Positions 8,377-57,744 of a stretch of DNA of 64,000 bases are shown one piece after another (position 1 is the first letter of the stretch; each line of letters starts with the position of its first letter). A model generated the notes under the pieces. The model saw only the letters and a list, made by a program, of their open reading frames with translations. It searched no databases and was not told where the DNA came from. Position numbers and translations under genes: made by a program. Source of the stretch: Boletus sp. NGJ (lineage: Eukaryota > Basidiomycota > Agaricomycetes > Boletales > Boletaceae); the NCBI GenBank assembly GCA_019096195.1, contig JAGTXK010000026.1, positions 62,001 through 126,000 of the forward strand, written 5' to 3'.

Positions 8377-11200
8377 TTACTCCTTTGAGTCTCTCCAGTA
8401 ATTGTCTCCATAGTTCAGGAACAGCTCCTCCCCTGCCTTGACTTTTTTTTCTAGAAAATTATTCCGACATCTACACATGACATCAGCTATGAATACTCAC
8501 TTGTGAGAAATCCAATTTGGTGCTCCCCAATAACCAGCATAGCTTTCCACATGTATGTGAGTCATTCTACTGTGCAAAATATTAGAAGACATACACTTTG
8601 CTTCCACATTGGCTTTGCCATCTGGCATGTGGTTTAAAAATCTTGTTGCATTACCAAGGTGGGCTGCATCAAATACTGGTAATTGAACATCCACTTTGTC
8701 TGGTGTGACTTCAAACACATAGTTGAGTTTGGTATGCTTGGCAAGTTCACTGTGAAAAGAGAATATGAAGACATCAAAAGAGAAGCAATGAGATGGAAAC
8801 CACACGTCATTGGCTCAGCAAGTTGGTTGTTTATTATATGGCCAACATAACCTGTTGAATGTCATCCTCATAATGTCAAAACATGGTACACATAGCACTT
8901 ACTACCAAGGAATGCTCCCTTGTTCATATTTTGACATGCAAAGGCACCCAAGCCATATGTTCCACATTTGACTTCAATAGGCTGCATAAAATATGAGTAT
9001 ATTTATTCCAAAGTTGTACCATTGACTATACCTTGCTAGCTAAGCATTGGATTTTGGTATTTTGACATGGTCTGCCAGTATGACCTAGATGACAAATGTA
9101 CTTCACTATTAATTACCTTCATAATTGCCTCTCCTTACCTCTACAATTCATCCTCAATCAGCATCCAGGATGTAATATATTATCTCACTTACCCAGCATC
9201 ACAGCTGATACATATGCCTGGAATACATTCTCTATTATGTTTCAAACAAAGACAGGTTTCAGGTACACATTTTCCATTGGTACAATTGCAGCTTGGCCAT
9301 TGTCTCTTGCCTAAATGGATAGGTAAATTCAACATACCACACATGCCAACCTGAGATAAAATGATTGAAAAAATACTCACATTGCACTCCACATCTACAC
9401 ATCAATGAACAGTGCTGCTTTTCAACATAACAAGGGCAATTATTACTTGTGCATGAACCAGGATGAGCACAAGCAGCCAGCCTAAAAATATGTCAACTGG
9501 AAGTAATAATCTGGAATAATCAAATAATATTTCTCACACTTCACAGTGAAGGACAGATACTGCATCAGCTGTATTTCTATTCAGACCACATTCAAAGCTG
9601 ACTGGAATAACAAAGGCTCACCAAATGGTAGTTTTTCTTTGATTCTCCTCCTTTGTTGTGGATGGTTGCCTTCATCAGCATCTGTCAATGAGCTACCTGA
9701 TGTACTTGAAAGAATTGTATGATCTGGAAACAAATGTAATCTTTGTACAAAAACCTAGAAATTCCATCAATATGTCAGAATACAAAAACTGCAATTTGAT
9801 GGAAACAATATGCCTGTTTGCATGGTTTAAGACATATTGTTGCTAATTGACAGGGAAACAAATCTGGAGCAATGCCAAGGACAGTTTCTAATGTGTCCAT
9901 GGAGCCTGTGTGATGAGGCTTGCTAGGAGAAGGTGGTAGAGTCTCCTGTTATCCAAGTTAATCATGATCAGCAACCCTGATGTGGCAGCACTCACCATAA
10001 ACCTCTCAAAATCCTGTATGTGCCTGAAACAATCTGGACCACAAGGAACTCCTTCAGACAGTATCATGTCTTGTGCAGTCAAGTGTGGCTTCCTAGAAGG
10101 AATATAGTTGCTGACATGCATCTGGCCTTTTCATATTTTCCAAATGTAAATTATTTGAAAATGATGGTATCAACATACCATGGGTTTCACAAACTGAGTG
10201 TAGGCAGTTTATGCTTGGACAGAAAGCCCTCAGATTAGACATCAACCTTTGCCTTAGATCATCTGGATCAGGTGTATAAACAGGTAACTGTTCCTCTTGG
10301 GTGGCATCAAATCCGAAGGCACCCGGCCAATGAAGCACATCTCTGATTGTAGTATCATGTGTGATTCTGAAAGAAATTTGGTATAGGTACATGAACTAAC
10401 CTCTGCGACTGCTCCCGTAGCAACCCTGAATTGTGTGTGTGACGGAATTCCTTGAACATATGCATGCGGTCGATATCCAGTATATCAACTTTATTCTTGG
10501 CATGTGCTAGTCTTCTGACGGTCTCTATCTGGATCATCTCCACTACCGCACCCAAGAGGTTCTTACTCGTGACGCGAGTGCACAAAGAAGACCGCTCACC
10601 ATCGGGATCAAACGGGGTTTCCCACTCCAAAAAGTCAAATCTGGCTTGATATTCTTGAGCTGGAAATTGGTCGTCATCCGCGTATGGCAAAAAGGGTAGG
10701 GTTTGCTCATGAGCGACGTCCACGAGGACGCTTCTGGATACTGGGGGACACGATTCGTATCGCGGGTGAGGCGAGTACGCGTCAATGGTGATGACGGGTA
10801 TCGACAACTCCGTCGTCCTTTCATGGGCACCACGATGTCCACCGGCGGTGAAATGGGTGACGGATATGCCCACGGCATCCGTTCCGTCTGCCAACCTGCC
10901 CGGTACCCTCTCCTCTGCGTCGTTGAGGAGCTTTGTCACCATCGTCTTGGCGACGCGAGCGACTTGCCGTTTGGATGCGAGGATCGACTGGGTGACAGTC
11001 CTGAGAATATCTTCGCAATAGCCAGGTTCCCAGTCGTAGAATTCGTTCCAGACGTCCTTGTAGGTGGTCCGTCCGAGTTTTTTGAGTTCGGAGAAGGTTC
11101 GGGAGGAGGGATCTTCGAAGGGGGGTACTGAGCCTGAGGCGGGTGTCGCCGAGGTTGGGGAACTGGGTTCGGTGCGGTCGATGTAAGCGAAAAGATCCAT
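8377..11200 (-). CDS. E(z)/EZH2-type SET-domain histone H3K27 methyltransferase
   Basis: A multi-exon gene. From N to C terminus: a GC-rich first exon (MDLFAYIDRTEPSS...) of about 280 residues with no named domain; AFCPSINCLHSVCETH, matching the Cys/His pre-CXC motif of EZH2; CGPDCFRHIQDFERF, matching EZH2 CGPxCY; then a CXC region with CAHPGSCTSNNCPCYVEK and CNCTNGKCVPETCLCLK. The SET domain contains YGLGAFACQNMNKGAF, GYVGHIINNQ, GNATRFLNHMPDGKANVEAK, VIGEHQIGFLT and AGEELFLNYGDNYW, ending at a TAA. SET is open across its introns (for example about 52 bp between NVEAK and MLVIGEH), so it looks intact. The RFxNH core and NYG tyrosine are present; the usual NHS is NHM. In PRC2, E(z) methylates H3 lysine 27. 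The exons after about 10,390 are AT-rich and CpG-poor, unlike exon 1. An upstream start in another frame is possible. Confidence 0.8.
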
Positions 11201-48000: not shown

Positions 48001-49317
48001 GGTCCACCAAAAGGTAAAGTACATATGTATAGTGGCTCAAAAAAGTGTCCCAATGTTTGACTATTTTGCAAAGACTTGACATTTGCAAAAGAACCAAAAG
48101 GTATTAGCCCTAACCCTTGCTGGGCCATTGATAGCCCTAATCCTTGCCCTGAAGATGAGCCCTTAGTCATGTGAGTTGGTTGTCATGGTACTGAGTTATA
48201 GCCATATTAAAAGGATATGTCATTGGGACACTTATTTGTGAAAGGAACTTGCAATGGACGAAAGAAAGAAACCTAGACCTAATATCTGAAGCATTGCTAA
48301 CCAAAGCAATATGCGACAGAGAGAAAGGCAATTTCAAGACTAAGCGAAACATGGTACTCTACCGGCTACTTATATACTGCCGATAGTGGTGCACGGACCA
48401 TGCTATGCTATGATGTCATGGGTACTGGATATGACATCACAGGAATGAGAGAATGTTAGTGTCCAATAGTGAAAGGAGGAAACAATGGAATGAGATGTGT
48501 GTGGTATGCGCATGTAAGTGAAATGTAGTCCAGAGCATTCTAGACATGGCTACATGTGATATATCAAGGAAGCTAATAGATAGAAATGGAGATGAGAGAT
48601 GAAAGAAGAAATGAAAAGGTAACACATGAGGCATTGCATATGGTGATCGTTGGATCTGGGATCGAGACGAGATTGTATCGGGTGATAGATTGGGTCTTGT
48701 CTATGTCTAAGGGTTAATCTAGCGTGGGCTTGATTAGTACTTGGCGGTACGAGGGGTGATCTATGGTATGAACCAGGGATCGAGGATCGAGCGGGGGATT
48801 CGAGGATCTGGAGGCGGGCTCCTGATTAGTACTTGTGTAGTGTACCGAGCACTGTGTCAGGTATGTCCACAGGGGTGTGGCAGTTTAGAGGCATGTGCGG
48901 CCTGTGCTTGTGGCGATGAATGCCGGGGTTAGCCGTGAGGCTACTTGGTGTCGTAGTGTAATGGGTACGACGAGGGTACAACTAGTGAAAGTGTATGTAG
49001 GTGTGGTCGATGGTATGGTGTATCATATGGGGGAGGATACGATGAGTGACTACTCTAGGTGTATGCGTGGTGGGGTAAGGATGGAGGTTGGTGAGTGTAT
49101 TGTCTATAGGTAGTGCGAAGGTGTAGGTGGGATCATTAATATATAGGTGGTATAAACGGTGATTGTTTCAATTTGACCCTGATATTATCAACTATCATTT
49201 AGTAAATAACATAAGGTTCTGATGGATGCTGTGCTTCAACCCTGTCTGATTATGTCACTTACATAACTCCAAATGGCATAAAGAGCAGAGATACCATTCA
49301 GCCAACCCTACTTCATT

Positions 49318-50679
49318 ATGAAATCCACTCCCTCCTCTGCTAGAGCCAATATTCTTTTTCTCTCTGAATCTGGCCTTTCTACTAGGCAAATATCATTCCA
49401 AACTGGTCTGGGGAAGTCTACTGTGGCCAGGGTTATCAAGGATGATCCACCCAGGCAAGGAAAACATCAAATTAGGATGTCCTTCTAAACTTTCTCCTAC
49501 TGATAAAAGGAGAATTGTCTCTAGTATTACCTCTGGCAAAGTTGAAAATGCTGTCCAGGCTATCCATCTCATCAATTCTGCTCTCTCTTCTCCTGTCTCT
49601 GCTCAAACTGTTAGGAATGTTCTCAAGTCTGCATCTCTCAAGGCTGTAGTCAAGAAAAAGAAGCCACTCTTGTCTGTGAAGCATAGGCAACATAGGCTAG
49701 CCTTTGCTCTCAAGCACCAACATTGGACGGTGGAGGACTGGACAGGGGTTATATGGTCAGATGAAACCAAGATCAACAGGATTGGGTCAGATGGAAGGAA
49801 GTATGTATGGAAATTGGCAGGAAAGTCTTTGCAAGACAAGGAAGTTCAGGGGACAGTAAAGTTTGGAGGAGGTTCTCTTGATGGTTTGGGGATGCATGAG
49901 TTGGAGTGGAGTGGGGATTCTTGCAGAGGTTGAAGGGAGGATGAATGCTGAGCAGTATGTCTCCATTTTGGAGGATAATCGGCTTCCTTCCATGGAAAAT
50001 TCTGGAATTCCTGAAGAGAGCTTTATCTTTCAACAAGATAATGACCCCAAGCACACCTCTAAAAGAGCCAAGGAGTGGCTGAAATCTCAAGGAATCAAGC
50101 TTCTTGACTGGCCAGCACAATCTCCAGACCTTAATCCCATTGAACATCTCTGGCAAATTCTCAAAAAAAAACTCAATAGCTATACAACACCACCAAAATG
50201 AAACAACTCTGACATTTTTCCATAAGATTATTGTAGTTAGCTAAGACTTGACAACCCCATGAAGTGATTACATAGTTATCCCGCACCTAGACCTTAAGTC
50301 TAGATCCTATGTCAGGCTATGTCATAACCCTATACCCATAGAACAGCCTAGACCCCACTATGTTACCGTATGTCATACGGAACTTTCTAGTAGTTTCCAT
50401 GCCGGCCCTGAACCAAAGGCCAAGTAGTATATAGGTAGTCTAGTAACATTTGTATTCGCTAGTCTTGGAATTCCTTTTCTCTCTCTTGGATAGTGCATTT
50501 TGCGCCCCTTGAGATATTAAGGCCTTTTCCCTTTCACAAAAGGAGTATGGGAGCTTTGGAAGAGAATTGAAGTGGAGTGGGGGAAGATAGAGCTTGAGGA
50601 GTGTCAAGGATTGATAGAGAGTATGCCTAGAAGACTAGAGGCAGTGATAAAAGCAAAGGGAGGGCATACAAAGTACTAA
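49318..50679 (+). pseudogene. Tc1/mariner transposase, interrupted
   Basis: The N-terminal helix-turn-helix part is MKSTPSSARANILFLSESGL then STRQISFQTGLGKSTVARVI. The second DNA-binding helix region is CPSKLSPTDKRRIVSSITSG. The DDE catalytic residues are visible in TGVIWSDETKINRIGSDGRK (first Asp), FIFQQDNDPKHTSKRAKEWL (second Asp) and QSPDLNPIEHLWQILKKKL (third acidic residue). The C-terminal end, ELWKRIEVEWGKIELEECQG and ESMPRRLEAVIKAKGGHTKY, lies 3' of the inserted LTR. The gene has two frame changes (near 49,450 and 49,880) besides the insertion, so it is dead. The cut-and-paste mechanism is known for the family. Confidence 0.88.
50199..50536. mobile_element. Solo LTR inserted in the Tc1 transposase
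   Basis: A 338-bp sequence starts TGAAACAACTCTGACATTTT and ends TTTTCCCTTTCA, with matching TGAAA/TTTCA tips, and is flanked on both sides by the 5-bp direct repeat CAAAA (50,194-50,198 and 50,537-50,541). Without it and one repeat copy, the flanking transposase codons join directly (TPPK with GVWELW). This is the footprint of an LTR retrotransposon reduced to a single LTR by recombination. It is younger than the Tc1 insertion. The internal region is absent; Copia or Gypsy kinship cannot be told. Confidence 0.9.
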
Positions 50680-50912
50680 ATTGAAGAATAGAAATGTTGC
50701 TCAAAAAAGTGTCCCAATGACATGTCACTTTAATATGGCTATATCTCAGTGCCATGACAACCAAATTATATGACTAAGGGCTCATCTTCAGGGCAAGGAT
50801 TAGGGCTATCAATGGCCCAGCAAGGGTTAGGGCTAATACCTTTTGGTTCTTTTGCAAATGTTAAGTCTTTGCAAAATAGCCAAACATTGGGACACTTTTT
50901 TAAGCCACTGTA

Positions 50913-51953
50913 TCACTCAGCAGAGATATGAAATGGATGGCTTCCAGGGCCACCAAACTTCAACAACTGGCCCTTGCTCACTGAGCCAATCGGCTGGCTG
51001 CCAAGATTTCACGCTTTCTCACCAAAGCTTCCACATTCCTTCGGTTGAAGAATGATGATGATGTGGAATCAGATATATCAGACAGAGACAGTAATATCAG
51101 AGAGGAAGACATGGTCAATGATCTTGGAGCTAAACAACCTGATCAGGCAAAGCTGCCATTGCTGTCTAACCTGGGTCATGACAAGTGCATGGCGATCGGT
51201 GCTCACCACCTGATTAAATAGGAGCTCAAACTCTGTGTGGGCCAAGCAAATGATGCTTTACATGAAATCCGGCTCGCATTAGCGGACAAGGTAGTGTTGT
51301 TCCGCACCAACATTCGGCATGCTTCAAGCCATGTGAAGACAACCAGGGTTTGGGGAAATGTGAATGCTGTGGATGCCTTACTTGCTTGGCAAGTTGCCAT
51401 ATATCAGAAATGCTGATCTGCCATGATAAATCTTTCAGCCGAGGATGACATGTTGGCCAGATATCAGGTGTTGAAGGATGAGGATCTTAAGGTTAGCATG
51501 GTGGTCACTGAGCCCAACTCCCGCAATTATCACACCAACAACCTGGCCTGGTTCTGGTTGATGGATATACCAGGGAACACTGAGATGAACAACTGGATGT
51601 CCGAATGTAAGCTTCACATTCTCATGAGACCTTTCTGCCGACATCATATATATCTATAGTCTACTGGGTACATTGGTTGCATGCAAAAGCCACAATAGAT
51701 TGGTGGGGAGAGAAGGTAGAGCTACTGATGGCCGAGTTCAGATGGACCATTGGTTACTTCAACCACAAATCAAGGGAATGGGAAGAGCATGCAGTGCAGA
51801 GTCAGCAGAAGGACAGCCAAGGAGAAACATGCTATGCTGCCTGCCAGCAGGCCATCTATGCTTGACTTCGGGAGCAGTGTTGGACGAAGTGAAAAAGCTG
51901 CCACCGGTCACAACTTAGAGAGACATTGGATGGTAGCCTCTTTTTATGAGTAG
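50913..51953 (+). mobile_element. KDZ (Kyakuja-Dileera-Zisupton) transposase C-terminal remnant
   Basis: The plus strand encodes the C-terminal signature of fungal KDZ transposases in several blocks: ELKLCVGQANDALHEIRLAL, DKVVLFRTNIRHASSHVKTT, YQVLKDEDLKVSMVVTEPNS, AWFWLMDIPGNTEMNNWMSE, HWLHAKATIDWWGEKVELLM and FRWTIGYFNHKSREWEEHA. In-frame stops (for example before ELKLC and after YQKC) and separation into at least three frames show it is decayed. The 5' part with the catalytic core is not seen. KDZ elements in Agaricomycetes are known to travel with or expand alongside TET/JBP genes; such a gene lies 1.1 kb away on the opposite strand. Confidence 0.8.
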
Positions 51954-52079
51954 ACATCATATCGTGACAAACATACACAGCCTGTCCAAAATTGTCATGC
52001 ATTGTTGGTGAATCCAGGATATTCTGAGGTCTGAGTGGGCTGAATATATAACCACAGTCTCTCTACACCCTCTGTTTCA

Positions 52080-52870
52080 TCATACTCCCAATTCCTCATC
52101 ATCCTTTCATGAAAACACTTTCTGATGACATGCCTGTCACCACTCTCCACATGATGCTTTGGTATCAGAAGTGCCGGATCAAAGTGGCTGTGGCACATCT
52201 TGCACGACTTCCTGCCGAGCAGTGGCCAGTAACTTGGCACGATAACCTGATGATGGAATCAGCATGTTTTCCCCATTTCACATTGCAAATTGGCCCTTTG
52301 ACATTATTGATTTGCAGAATGTCTTGGCCTTTTACTTAGGCCTATATGTGCCCATGCACACCATAACTCCACCAACCCCATCCTGTGCCTGATTCATCAA
52401 AGTCAGTGCCAGTCTGGAGAAATCTCCAACAGGACATCATCTGTGCCTTCTCCAAAATTGACCTCAATGGCATGAAGCAAACCCCAGAGCTCTTGCCAGG
52501 CTGGCAGCCAAGTGCAGGTGCTCCCACTTGTGGATTTGAGCACCCATGGTGGGTGGCTGACATTCCAGACTACCACCTCAAGGCATCTCAGTTCTTCATT
52601 TCCAATTCCTTTGCAAGGGCAGAAACCTTCTTTCAGGTATGTGGATCGCTTGGATCATGATCATCAGCTAATTCATTACAAGGGCTATTGGCCAATGCAT
52701 GAGTCTCCATTGGACAATGCTCATAATGCTCAGCTGGATGCCCTGGTGACCAGGATTTTGGCTGAGCTTCAGCAAAATATCGCCGAGCTTGCAAAGACAG
52801 AGGCGACAATGATAGAGTCTTGGGTAGATATGATTCAGTTGTAAAAACTGTTTCAGAAGCATTGGTGATG
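52080..52870 (+). other. CpG-poor decayed coding-like stretch, unknown
   Basis: Short frames such as TPELLPGWQPSAGAPTCGFE with HPWWVADIPDYHLKASQFF, and DALVTRILAELQQNIAELAK, look like remains of a protein gene but match no family I recognise. They lie between KDZ and TET/JBP remains and probably belong to the same element or gene neighbourhood. Confidence 0.35.
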
Positions 52871-53032
52871 TGTGCTTGGCCTGCAATCCAGACTCCTTGT
52901 CTGTAGTTAATGGTTGTAATTTGTAATTCAGACTTTACCTGGCGATATCTTGGCCGAGTTCGGCAAAGATGACTAACTGAGCACAGACCAAGGCAATAAA
53001 TCTACTTCTGACTTTGACGGCCTACCTATTCT

Positions 53033-54282
53033 TTACTGTCCTCCCCACCTCTCATATTTCATGTAATTACAGTGGGAAACATCCATGTATTCATGGACAT
53101 TGTCCCACATGTAGTATGAGAGCACCCTCCACTCCCCTTCAACTTGACTGACTCCATGCTCGAGCATTTGCCCTGAGAATGCGATTACTGTCCTGGGGTC
53201 ATACCAAAGCTGATGCTTGATGGTCAGGACCACAAAATCTAACCTGGTGTAGTTGCCAACCGAGATGAGAAGATCCAACCACTGGGGCCTTCTGTTGATA
53301 TCAGTGTGAAATGGACTTGCTCAGTTGGCCATGATGGACACAACATTATAAACCGATGACCACAAGGGAAGTACATCCTTCATGTCAAGGTCCTCCTATG
53401 TGGCCATCCAGTTGCTGAGCTGAACCAATATCTCCTGACCTGACTCATACATTTCAGAATGCAGGATGGTAACTAATGCTACCAAAAGAGCTGAATGCTC
53501 TTTCATGGCCAGCAGCCATTCACATGCTCCACTATCGCTTTTGGTTGCCTTGAGCAGTGCTGAAACCTTGGGTGGCCCATTTTCCTCCTGTTGACTGGTG
53601 TTGGGTTAATGGAAAAGGGGGGAAGCCAAATAAACCGACATTTCAGCCCTGTTGAAACCAAGCAGGAGATAGGTTTATCGTCCCTCACAGCTTTGCTATA
53701 TGGCAGAAGTTTACCTCTGAGATTCGCCAGTGAGTATTCCTGATCAAGCTGCAGGAAAAAGGCCCAGATAGCAGTGGTAGCTGTTCCCAGATGTATTGCT
53801 TGATTGATCTGTTGGTGAGATGGTCACAGCATTTGGGGACATACTCACTTGATTAGGTTGACTGATTGCACTGGGTAAGTACCAAAGTAAGACATAGCCT
53901 GAACAATTGGTAACAACCACGGGTTCGGTGAGCGCAGTATATTCCTAATCATCGGTGTCTGATGGCACCGTTGAATGTCCCCTCCTTTTGATTCGTTCAC
54001 CAAGCCAAATAATGTCAACATTGCCGATCATCACTGGGCGGAAATGAGCAGGGCATCATCAAATGTGAGAGCCATACCCTTGTTTTGATATGCATTTGAA
54101 ATGATGCCAACCATCCTGTTCACCTTGCAAACTGTTTGCACAGGAATGCATGGAGGTGGAATTTTTGGCCGACTGTTGTCATTGGCAGGTGGCAGGGAAT
54201 TCTGAAATCTAGAAACCATATAGGTAGCCAATTTATTGGTGTAGGCAATGGCCCAATTGTCAGGAATTTCGGGAGGGCTCAT
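53033..54282 (-). pseudogene. Fungal TET/JBP-family dioxygenase gene, decayed
   Basis: Homologous to the 2-oxoglutarate/Fe(II) dioxygenases of the TET/JBP family that oxidise 5-methylcytosine. The N-terminal frame starts MSPPEIPDNWAIAYTNKLAT and runs through MVGIISNAYQNKGMALTFDD. The catalytic part near the 3' end has PFHTDINRRPQWLDLLISVG (HxD iron site), YTRLDFVVLTIKHQLWYDPR, TVIAFSGQMLEHGVSQVEGE (distal His) and LSYYMWDNVHEYMDVSHCNY. So the iron ligands survive, but stops interrupt the frame. Two adjacent TGA codons follow LLISAQ (near 54,030), one TGA sits just before ASPFHTD (near 53,320), and one TAG follows NWMAT (near 53,400). The TGA codons are of the type made by CGA to TGA. The gene is CpG-poor. 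It lies beside KDZ transposase remains, a known fungal association. Confidence 0.8.
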
Positions 54283-54439
54283 AGTGAAAGGAAGATCTGA
54301 GAGGATCAGGGGAAGCAGAGATCAGAAAAATATATAGAGTGGTAGGTTCCCATGGAAACTCATATTTCAAGTGTTAGTCTGGATTTGGAGAATTGTTCAC
54401 AGCCGCTGAGAAGAGTAGATTTTGGACAGAGCAATGCAT

Positions 54440-56515
54440 TAGCTGAGCATCTCCCCATATTCAAGGTGCATCGCATGCACTTGCTCAGTCTCTTCTGTAT
54501 CCGTTGCACTAGGTCACACTCGCCCTGCTCAATCCTATTGTATGCATCAAGGTCAATCACACTTACACTGCTCAGTCCTGTCACATAGATTGGCAAGTGG
54601 TCACCCCCACCCTGCTTGGTCCTGCTGTATCCATTGAGGTAAGCCATGCTCATACTGCTTGGTCTGGTCAAATGTATTAAGGTAAGTCACACCCTCGCTT
54701 CTCGGTCACACCATATGCATCAGGGTCAGCCACCCCCATATTGCTCAGTCCTGTCATATATATCGGGACTCGGTCGTCCCACCCTGCCCGGCCTCACCAT
54801 ATCCATTGAGGTAAGCCCCGCTTATACCTCTCAGTGTGGTTGTATACATCAGCACTTGGTCACCTTCACCCTACTCAGTCTTACCATATACATCAAGGTC
54901 AGTCACGCTCACCCTGCTTGGTGTGGTCACATACATTGGTACTTGGTCACCTCTGCCCTACTCGGTCGTACAGTATATATTGAGGTCAGTCATGCTCACA
55001 CTGCACGGCGTGGTTGTATCCATTGATGTCAGCCACCTCCACCCTGTGTGGTGTGGTCATCTCCATCAAGGTCAGCCCCCTCCACCCTACTTGGTGTGGT
55101 CATATCCATTGAGGTCCCTCACCCTCACCCTGCCTGGTGTGGTCATATATGTTGGTACTTGGTATCCACTGCCCTGCTTGATCTGATTGTATCCATCATG
55201 GTCAGTCACACTCACACTACTCAGTGTGGTCATATACATCAGCACTTGGTCATCTCTACCCTGCTTGGTCCCACCATATCCATTGAGGTCAGTCATACTC
55301 ATACTGCTTGGTGTGGTCATCTCCATCAATGTCAGCCCCCTCTACCCCGCTTAGTGTGGTCATATCCATCGAGGTCAGTCACCCTCACCCTGCTGGATGT
55401 GGTTGTATCCATCGAGGTCAGTCACCCTCACCCTGCTGGATGTGGTTGTATCCATCAAGGTCAGTCACACCCACACTGCTCAGTGTGGTCGTATACTGTA
55501 CATCAGCACTTGACCACCTCTGCCCTGCTCAGTCCCACCATATTCATCAAGGTTGGTCATATCCATACTACTCAATGTGGTCATATTCATTGAAGGTCAG
55601 CCACCTCCACCCTGCCCAGTGTGGTCGTATATGTCAGTACTTGGTATCCACTGCCCTGCTCAGTCTGATTGTATCCATTGAGGTCAGCCACCCCCACCCT
55701 GCTCAGTGTGGTCACACACATTGGTACTTGGTCGCCTCCACCCTGCTCGGTCCCACTGTATACATCGAGGTTGGTCATACTCATACTGCTCGGTGTGGTC
55801 ATATACATCGGTACTTGGTTGTCTCCACCCTGCTCGGTCCTACAGTATACATTGAGGTTGGTCATGCTCACCCTGCCTGGTGTGCTCATATACATCAGTA
55901 CTTGGTAACCTTTGCCCTGCTTGGTCTCGTCATATACATTGAGATCAGTCACACTCACACCACTTGGTGTGGTCACATACATCGGCACTTGGTCACCTCC
56001 ACCCTGCTTGGTCCCACCATATCCATCGAGGTTGGTCATACTCATACTGCTTGGTGTGGTCATATACATCAGTACTTGGTCACCTCCACCCTGCTCAGTC
56101 CTACAGTATACATCAAGGTCGGTCATGCTCACCCTGCCTGGTGTGCTCATATACGTTGGTAGGTAACCTCTGCCCTGCTCAGTCTTGTCGTATCCATCGA
56201 GGTCAGTTACACTCACACCACTCGGCATGGTCATATACATCAGTACTTGGTCACCTCTGCCCTACTCAGTCCTACCGTATACATCGAGGTCAGTCACCCT
56301 CATACTTCTTCGGTGTGATCATATACATTGGCCCTCGGTCACCCCCAACCTGCCCAGTCTTGTTGTATACATTGAGGTCAGCCACACTCACACTGCTCAG
56401 TCCTGTCATATATATCAGTACTTGGACACCCCCACCCTGCTCAGTCCCATCATATGCATCAACCTCAATCTTACTCACCCCACTGGGGGTTGTTTTGTAT
56501 CCATCGATCCTTCAT
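54440..56515. repeat. Minisatellite, 87-bp period made of two 43-44-bp half-units
   Basis: About 2.1 kb of tandem repeats. Half-unit A contains GTGTGGTCATATCCATYGAG then GTCAGTCACACTCACACTGC; half-unit B contains ATATACATCGGTACTTGGTC then RCCTCCACCCTGCT. In the better-ordered part (about 55.6-56.2 kb) A and B alternate to give an 87-bp dimer, while at 55,391-55,434 one half-unit repeats with a 43-bp step. Because 87 is 29 codons, long frames stay open on both strands. The array lies just upstream of the TET/JBP start. Confidence 0.9.
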
Positions 56516-56650
56516 CTAGTTACCCTTTCCAGGGCCTTCCATATCCTATGTATATGCATGTTAGGCGGGCCCAGCCATGTCTTACCCATCTCATATATCT
56601 CAGGCCCATCACAGTATCATTCATACATGTCAGGTGTTTTGCAAGCAGGC

Positions 56651-57744
56651 TCACTGTATGCTACGGGCAAATTTGACTGCATTATGTGGAGGAAGTGCAG
56701 TGTATGCAGCACAGTGATGTGATGTGTGATCAGTGTGTGCAGCGCAGTGACATGGTGTGCGGATGTCGTGTGCAGTGCAGTGATGAGATTGGCGTATGGT
56801 GTGAACCATTAGACACAGGGTGTGGTATGACAGCAGTACAACAGGAATGGTTAGGCTTACCTCTTGGATGAATTTGGCTTGTTGTTCATCAGTGGAGTCT
56901 TTGAGGTCATTGAGGGTTGTGAGCAGTGTCATCTCATTGACTACTGCGAGGCTGAAGGCATTGGGGGAGCCAATTGTTTTGTGCCAGTTGAGACGCTGTT
57001 GTCCTTGGTATACAAGGAGCACTCTTTGTTGACAGGTGATGCGTGAGTATCACCATGGATGCTTTTCGATGTTTCCCCAGAAGGATATGAACATTTCGAC
57101 ATGGGAGGGGTCCCAGTTGCAGTAGCGCATCGCTTTGAGCATGCATATGGCTGCTTGGCCAAATTGCTCGAATGTGAGGTCTTCATCAGGGACTCCGGGT
57201 AGCTTGCTGTGAGTGGACATGGATGGGACAAAAGTGGGAGTGCCCTCATCTGAGGTGACGAGGGAGAGAGACACATCGTCTGAGATGTTGGCTTTGACAC
57301 GGTCAGCTGTGTTCAGTCCTTCGTTGGTCCAGTACCATAGTTCAATGAATTGATGGCTTTTTAGCTTGCGAAGGGCTACTTGCACTGGTACAGCAACCGG
57401 TTCTGATGGAACCAGGTGGTCTGGGATGGGCATGAACTTGGATTTGTTTTTCTTTGTTCCTCCCGTAAGGCTTGAGCTTCGTCTTCTTCCTCTTGTTGAC
57501 GAGTTTGTTCTGCTCGTTCTCGCTCGTCAGCGTGCGCTATGAGTTCTTCCTGTCTGGCACGGTCTCTTTCGACATGTTCTTTCTCTTTGGTGGCATGGTG
57601 TATGGCTCCGAGTGATGTGATGGCGAGGACTGCAGTGAGACCTGCATCGACGAGCTCTTGGCATTCTCTTTCGAAAAGGGGGCCTTCGGAATCTGGCTCG
57701 TTGTTGTTGTTGTTGTTGTTGTCCTGGTTGGCGAGCTGATCCAT
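56651..57744 (-). mobile_element. Mobile-element-associated protein of a repetitive basidiomycete family
   Basis: Starts MDQLANQDNNNNNNNEPDSE; the Asn run comes from a GTT-type trinucleotide repeat at about 57,697-57,719. Next comes a charged coiled-coil part with ERDRARQEELIAHADERERA. A globular part follows with KFMPIPDHLVPSEPVAVPVQ, LRKLKSHQFIELWYWTNEGL, FEQFGQAAICMLKAMRYCNW and EMFISFWGNIEKHPW. The 3' part has LLVYQGQQRLNWHKTIGSPN. Proteins of this layout recur in large numbers in Agaricomycete genomes and are thought to belong to mobile elements; the family name is not known to me. It appears to have at least one break and is treated as a fossil. Confidence 0.5.

Follow-up and report, generated by a model that had tools for sequence, protein, structure and literature searches.

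As described in the available text of Kojima 2025 (PMC12730594), TET+ Kyakuja elements of the KDZ type are DNA transposons that carry TET/JBP genes of the AG type, with Asp337 and with Gly or Ser at position 331. The same text gives CA..TG ends, a 7-bp target duplication and no inverted repeats as marks of Kyakuja, calls the transposon TET coding regions mostly undisrupted, and repeats that hypermutation is undetected in Agaricomycotina. The reference enzyme is CcTet of Coprinopsis cinerea (PDB 7vpn, 7w5p, 8jkk), and the accessible part of PMC11040006 covers the roles of His326/Asp328, His376, Arg321 and Arg385. Replacement of Arg321 by Gln or another positive residue left almost no activity, and Arg385 to Ala abolished it, according to the same portion of that paper. 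As for decay at CpG, the excerpts available from Amselem 2015 (PMC4352252) link basidiomycete CpG signatures to Masc2-like enzymes, and those from PMC4014442 and PMC6980582 report CpG-biased change in Rhizoctonia solani AG8 and Tricholoma matsutake, respectively. Both kinds, the TET+ KDZ transposon and the CpG decay process, are already known. Among the literature matches listed, nothing relevant dealt with a CpG-killed fungal TET gene, none described parallel decay of TET+ element copies or arginine weak points, and those on CpG depletion in Agaricomycetes concerned mainly animals; the available part of PMC8889193 makes no mention of TET JBP, KDZ, DNMT or pseudogenes.

The locus reported here lies in the window, the whole 64,000-nucleotide stretch analysed (C41:62001-126000 of a 32.8-Mb assembly in 141 contigs). 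It is very probably a dead CcTet-like TET/JBP copy of a KDZ-type DNA transposon, decayed at CpG through inferred host methylation. The gene, of the CcTet kind, occupies 53033-54282 on the minus strand and has four exons within a KDZ transposon remnant. It matches the TET+ Kyakuja elements, as far as Kojima 2025 is available, in the TET/JBP gene beside a KDZ transposase, the many copies, the likeness to CcTet, Asp337 (in 19/19 distinct copies) and one end in TG. Position 331 is Gly or Ser in 15/19 distinct copies and Arg in four, the window copy included. The window copy aligned to CcTet (PDB 7vpn) with E 8.9e-17, starting only from exon 4. Its Tet_JBP score in the profile search of the assembly was 31.4 bits, below the 34.9 cut-off; Pfam gave weak matches to single fragments of the window (Tet_JBP E 0.0015, below cut-off), which is why assignment to the family relies on CcTet and the own-genome profile. 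The iron-site motifs FHTD and EHGV, picked out by an earlier note made from the DNA letters, do lie on the minus strand and align to His326/Asp328 and His376 of CcTet, so that the HxD...H triad is present (FHTD, EHG at the 326/328/376 positions). By comparison with the CcTet data available in PMC11040006, Asp337, Leu339, Tyr361 and Val378 are also kept, whereas the window copy has a stop for Arg321, Trp for Arg385, Arg for Gly331 and Ser for Thr323.

The profile search gave 25 Tet_JBP matches, window copy included, with 18 above the curated cut-off. A DNA search with the locus hit 34 places, nine of which were partial matches at other sites of the assembly. Near copies were found at 12 other loci, with 86-91% identity in the alignment, and seven copies form a second subfamily with 69-72% identity. 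Over the aligned stretch, one near copy (L006) equals another (L008) except for one inserted base, leaving 11 distinct near copies; counts of distinct copies exclude L006, and some other counts include it. All DNA-level comparisons were made between copies within this single assembly.

The KDZ transposase profile PF18758 had 91 matches in the assembly. For 15/25 TET matches, a PF18758 match was located 2.5-3.6 kb away on the opposite strand, in convergent orientation; the window copy has none nearby, as its transposase survives only in the C-terminal part. This remnant (50911-51900, plus strand, 3′ limit approximate) contains in-frame stops and lacks the core domain. It lies about 1.1 kb from the TET stop, as the earlier note had recognised, and continues the KDZ transposase frame of L070, the core piece of which matched PF18758 with E 2.9e-24. 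The remnant is collinear with L070, L071, L072 and L073, and BLAST of the whole window against four other copies found nothing of the missing KDZ part left of 50911. The assignment is to KDZ as a whole, Kyakuja and Zisupton taken together.

The interval 52000-52900, between the KDZ and TET genes, is kept in the four other copies compared and has open pieces, one of which (52052-52339) had no Pfam match. The upstream part of the element (54283-56688) includes a degenerate tandem array of ~43/87-bp units at 54.8-56.4 kb, and was matched in all four other copies compared. The TET-side end, ...TTTGACTGCATTATGTG, ending in TG, was placed at 56672-56688 (plus strand), where homology between the window copy, L071 and L073 stops. 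The KDZ-side end and a target duplication were not found in the copies compared. Both candidate ends of a copy on contig C133 carry the 7-bp direct repeat GACCTTG. It was dismissed as a target duplication and put down to chance, because two C133 copies remain homologous beyond it. These two inverted element copies (C133:37501-49000 and 56001-67500; L075+L070 and L071+L074) are 95.8% identical over more than 10.7 kb, and their homology runs beyond the stretches compared. Left of the KDZ remnant, a Tc1/mariner-like element (DDE_3; 48028-50913, plus strand; PF13358 E 1.4e-14) adjoins it and holds two inserts; the transposase of this copy is spread across overlapping frames.

The gene model was derived from an alignment of the window copy with the 12 close copies and seven of the second subfamily, and comprises 344 codons plus stop, all features being on the minus strand. 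Exon 1 (54078-54282) starts with the ATG at 54282, which is present in 18/20 copies, and has conserved GT-AG sites. Intron 1 (54034-54077; 44 nt, GTATGG...CCCAG) keeps GT-AG in 18/20 aligned copies, with an AT donor in L012 and O_L018. Exon 2 (53849-54033) is followed by intron 2 (53749-53848; 100 nt, GTGAGT...CTGCAG), the length of which varies between subfamilies and which keeps GT-AG in 19/20. Exon 3 (53659-53748) was modelled from the aligned copies, and intron 3 (53588-53658; 71 nt) also keeps GT-AG in 19/20, with a donor gap in L009. Exon 4 (53033-53587) encodes the oxygenase core. Close copies differ by 2 nt in length in the exon 3-4 stretch, and the downstream frame is nonetheless kept. 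The N-terminal half of the model had no match in CcTet, so the support for exons 1-3 comes from the copies. Under this model, L001 has no stop in any of the 344 codons, and L014 is open up to a stop that comes one codon too soon; the remaining 18 of the 20 rows all stop before that, and 11 of them show a frame-breaking indel or a broken splice site as well. In non-CpG columns, the subfamilies diverge by 0.267 in introns and by 0.200, 0.119 and 0.292 at the first, second and third codon positions. This pattern supports the gene model and shows past coding constraint on the gene during the divergence of its subfamilies.

The stretch is CpG-poor, as first noticed in the earlier note: CpG observed/expected was 18/67.3 in 53033-54282 and 31/115.0 in 50911-53032, compared with 2526/2489 in 10500-46500. 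In this preservation of CpGs at 10500-46500, the window differs from R. solani, where, in the available text of PMC4014442, the bias affects genes and repeats alike. When the differences between copies were classed as CpG or other, CpG-type transitions were strongly enriched, in line with the decay that had been proposed. Between the window copy and the 12 near copies, CA-TG double transitions numbered 340, and the seven other pairs 2-19 each (319 vs 2-19 without L006); they occupied 105 columns, vs 8-20 for the other pairs. Relative to L015, the window copy has 0.15 differences per base at CpG-type sites, compared with 0.032-0.059 in control families and 0.118 in the TA/CA/TG set, which itself contains CA and TG. 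Inferring CpG sites from variable columns makes rates too high, and the main claims were therefore controlled for this circularity with outgroup-defined sites, control dinucleotides and pairwise states. At outgroup-defined CG sites, 10.3% of close-copy readings were still CG, whereas five control dinucleotides were unchanged in 34-50%.

The comparison with the sister copy L072 over 50911-54480 found 9 CpGs in common, 72 in one copy only, and 67 that had decayed oppositely in the two. This corresponds to a CpG loss of ~80% in each copy after they split, whereas non-CpG transitions amount to 0.026 per site. Over five pairs among four copies, we estimated 69-80% CpG loss per copy, 20-31-fold above other transitions. 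Opposite decays exceeded the two-lineage prediction in 4/5 pairs (67 v 45.6, 67 v 58.6, 52 v 43.3 and 56 v 37.7; 67 v 72.0 predicted in the window/L072 pair), indicating that rates were non-uniform or that the split model is too simple.

Coding made little mark on the decay. Retention at 98 inferred CpG sites was 0.174 in exons, 0.165 in introns and 0.184 in flanks, it was 0.164, 0.196 and 0.169 by codon position, and 8-23 of 97 inferred sites were retained per close copy; all these retention figures use inferred sites. Per CpG-type base, the TET gene and the rest of the element differed by 0.149 v 0.157 (L072), 0.121 v 0.169 (L070) and 0.159 v 0.167 (L073). Decay was thus alike in exons, introns and flanks, which argues that the gene was not targeted. 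As the comparison of copies shows, the close copies differ chiefly at CpG-type sites, throughout the element and regardless of coding, and the decay looks like a neutral, parallel process that acted in place and was not directed at the gene. The earlier note had seen a self-referential fossil, a gene for processing 5mC inactivated by methylation. CpG decay as such stands, and its gene-specific side does not, as decay in the rest of the element is no slower and exons decay like introns; what seemed self-referential looks like a side effect of transposon decay in general. Among private non-CpG changes in the window copy, 13/17 are C:G to T:A, and on the coding strand C to T (11) outnumbers G to A (2); these numbers are small.

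The same pattern could come from a RIP-like premeiotic process that mutated repeats in bursts, instead of slow deamination of methylated CpG. We consider this unlikely, although it is the most serious of the alternatives. The mutated sequences are indeed repeats, and CpG hypermutation has been likened to RIP in Rhizoctonia solani and Tricholoma matsutake, in the literature excerpts available. However, TG and CA outcomes are mixed and form no strand-coherent tracts (runs z from -0.8 to 1.4 in eight comparisons of four copies). Moreover, the stretch 8500-9900, which is matched nowhere else in the assembly, is equally depleted, with 1 CpG vs 49.5 expected. Repeated rounds of such a process could erase tracts, and 8500-9900 could be an old repeat, so neither point decides the matter. 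We also observed that 8807-10313 is a run of 1507 bp without any CpG amid normal sequence; two open frames there had no Pfam match.

Slow decay of methylated CpG after insertion, the reading we prefer, also has to be set against an element that was already CpG-poor when it transposed and passed its low CpG on to its copies, as may hold for the Tc1 neighbour. The 1031-bp body of that Tc1-like element has 2 CpG vs 47.4 expected, yet it is matched at 98-99% identity by at least 39 other copies, so low CpG alone is no proof of decay in place. A nearly CpG-free Tc1-like transposon seems to have amplified recently, and perhaps it is beyond the reach of CpG methylation. For the TET element, inheritance of low CpG is very improbable. 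Most differences between its copies fall at CpG-type sites, and the estimated ancestral CpG count was ~225 for window/L072 (50911-54480) and 154-225 over the five pairs, against 182.3 (115.0 + 67.3) expected from the present composition of 50911-54282. The ancestor is therefore estimated to have had about as many CpGs as base composition predicts.

The window copy has three in-frame stops. Codon 98 in exon 2 (53947-53945) is TAG in the window copy and CAG in 17/19 distinct copies, and codon 224 in exon 4 (53398-53396) is TAG in the window copy and CAG or CAA in 17/19. Because nearly all other copies have CAG or CAA there, these two stops are, by this comparison, not CpG changes; the earlier note mentioned neither them nor the loss of the Arg385 codon. 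Codon 249 (53323-53321) is the TGA before ASPFHTD for which the earlier note had expected CGA, and it is in frame. Over the 19 distinct copies it reads TGA in 9, CAA in 6, CGA in 3, sister L015 among them, and TGG in 1; it corresponds to CcTet Arg321, and the TGA is a stop made by CpG decay. On a tree built without CpG columns, with stops assumed non-reverting, TGA arose five times at codon 249 and four times at codon 82. Across the 19 copies, codons 1-343 hold 39 in-frame stops: 17 were classed as CGA to TGA (codons with CGA or CAA in other copies), 12 as CAR to TAR, 3 as TGG to stop, 5 as a CpG column plus a second change, and 2 as others.

The two adjacent TGA triplets after LLISAQ, also proposed as stops in the earlier note, are not stops. 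They lie out of frame at the junction of intron 1 and exon 2, where the acceptor reads CCCAG followed by TGATGATCGG, so that 'LLISAQ TGA TGA' comprises the first exon 2 bases in the wrong frame; past the acceptor, the correct exon 2 frame reads VMIGNVDII. The second TG at this junction is a CpG-type site (TG in 13/13 close copies, CA in 7/7 outgroup copies) and, under the gene model, not a stop. That all the stops are artefacts of unrecognised introns in a living gene, true as this is of the LLISAQ pair, is hardly credible, since the three remaining stops are exonic, at positions where aligned copies are open, codons 224 and 249 fall within the stretch aligned to CcTet, and Arg385 is lost too.

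The codon for Arg385, which binds 2-oxoglutarate, is codon 313 (53131-53129). It is TGG in the window copy, giving Trp, and CGG in some other copies, a comparison suggesting that CpG decay made the change. With its Arg385 codon reading TGG and stops at codons 98, 224 and 249, the window copy is, on sequence grounds, a pseudogene of the TET/JBP family and not a working member. The earlier claim that CpG decay killed the gene holds in part: this decay is the main source of change, provides one of the three stops and removed the Arg385 codon, whereas the other two true stops arose from CAG to TAG changes and not at CpG.

The loss extends over the family. Arg321 (codon 249) is kept in 3/19 distinct copies and Arg385 (codon 313) in 3/19, and both together in none. 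Decay turned Arg321 mostly into a stop or Gln, and Arg385 into Trp or Gln. Under neutral decay, 0.47 copies with both arginines were expected; finding none is what neutral decay predicts and gives no sign of targeting. In L001 and L014, which are fully or almost fully open, the Arg385 codon is TGG. For five further loci, the reading covered exon 4: L016 keeps both arginines and has two in-frame stops (one TAG, one TAA), while L013, L020, L022 and L024 have lost at least one arginine, L022 ending before 385. No copy was recognised as intact in the 24 distinct sequences of the 25 TET/JBP matches, a survey that detects a minimum of copies, may suffer from gaps in the assembly, and does not extend to the nine partial DNA matches. 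The absence of a recognised intact copy and the strong CpG-type change set this family apart from the elements in the available text of Kojima 2025.

Machinery that could methylate CpG appears to be encoded in the genome. A DNMT1-RFD match was located at C22:1102858-1103022 in a 472-aa open frame, and two methylase matches follow 2.6-3.8 kb past it on the same contig and strand, an arrangement as in a DNMT1-type gene, judging by the order of the matches. Further methylase matches are on C45 and C102. Other Pfam matches in the methylase loci were QueH and TIP49, which were set aside. For the basidiomycete cases, the available texts propose a Dnmt1-class enzyme of the Masc2 kind, not RID, and the DNMT1-RFD match is present here. 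Those reports (PMC4352252, PMC4014442, PMC6980582), in the parts available, also share with this locus the C-to-T change at CpG in transposons. In contrast to them, the victim here encodes a relative of 5mC oxidases, and the decay per copy, the exon/intron neutrality and the consequences for single residues are quantified.

We propose that a CpG-replete ancestor gave rise to copies that would each have lost 69-80% of their CpGs independently, to TpG or CpA. The cause would be host CpG methylation followed by deamination of 5mC. In the window copy, this would have produced the stop at the Arg321 codon and the Trp at the Arg385 codon, and the two CAG to TAG stops would come from a slower non-CpG background. 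The living enzyme presumably oxidised 5mC in favour of the element, as Kojima 2025 proposes. As the two needed arginines are coded by CGA and CGG, ordinary methylation decay would disable the enzyme readily. More speculatively, and with the odds well against it, the TET family may have protected its own CpGs in trans until early decays of arginine codons removed the last working enzyme, after which CpG loss ran in parallel in all copies, as an epigenetic self-extinction. If true, this would explain the CpG-replete ancestor, the low retention in all close copies, and the lack of any copy recognised as intact.

For the present genome, these results run against the published view, as given in the available text, of mostly undisrupted transposon TET genes and of no detected hypermutation in Agaricomycotina, a group to which the CcTet-like TET suggests that this fungus belongs. 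They provide a quantified case of a transposon that carried a presumed methylcytosine oxidase and still decayed at CpG, and they name a weak point of such an element, namely needed arginines encoded by CGA and CGG.
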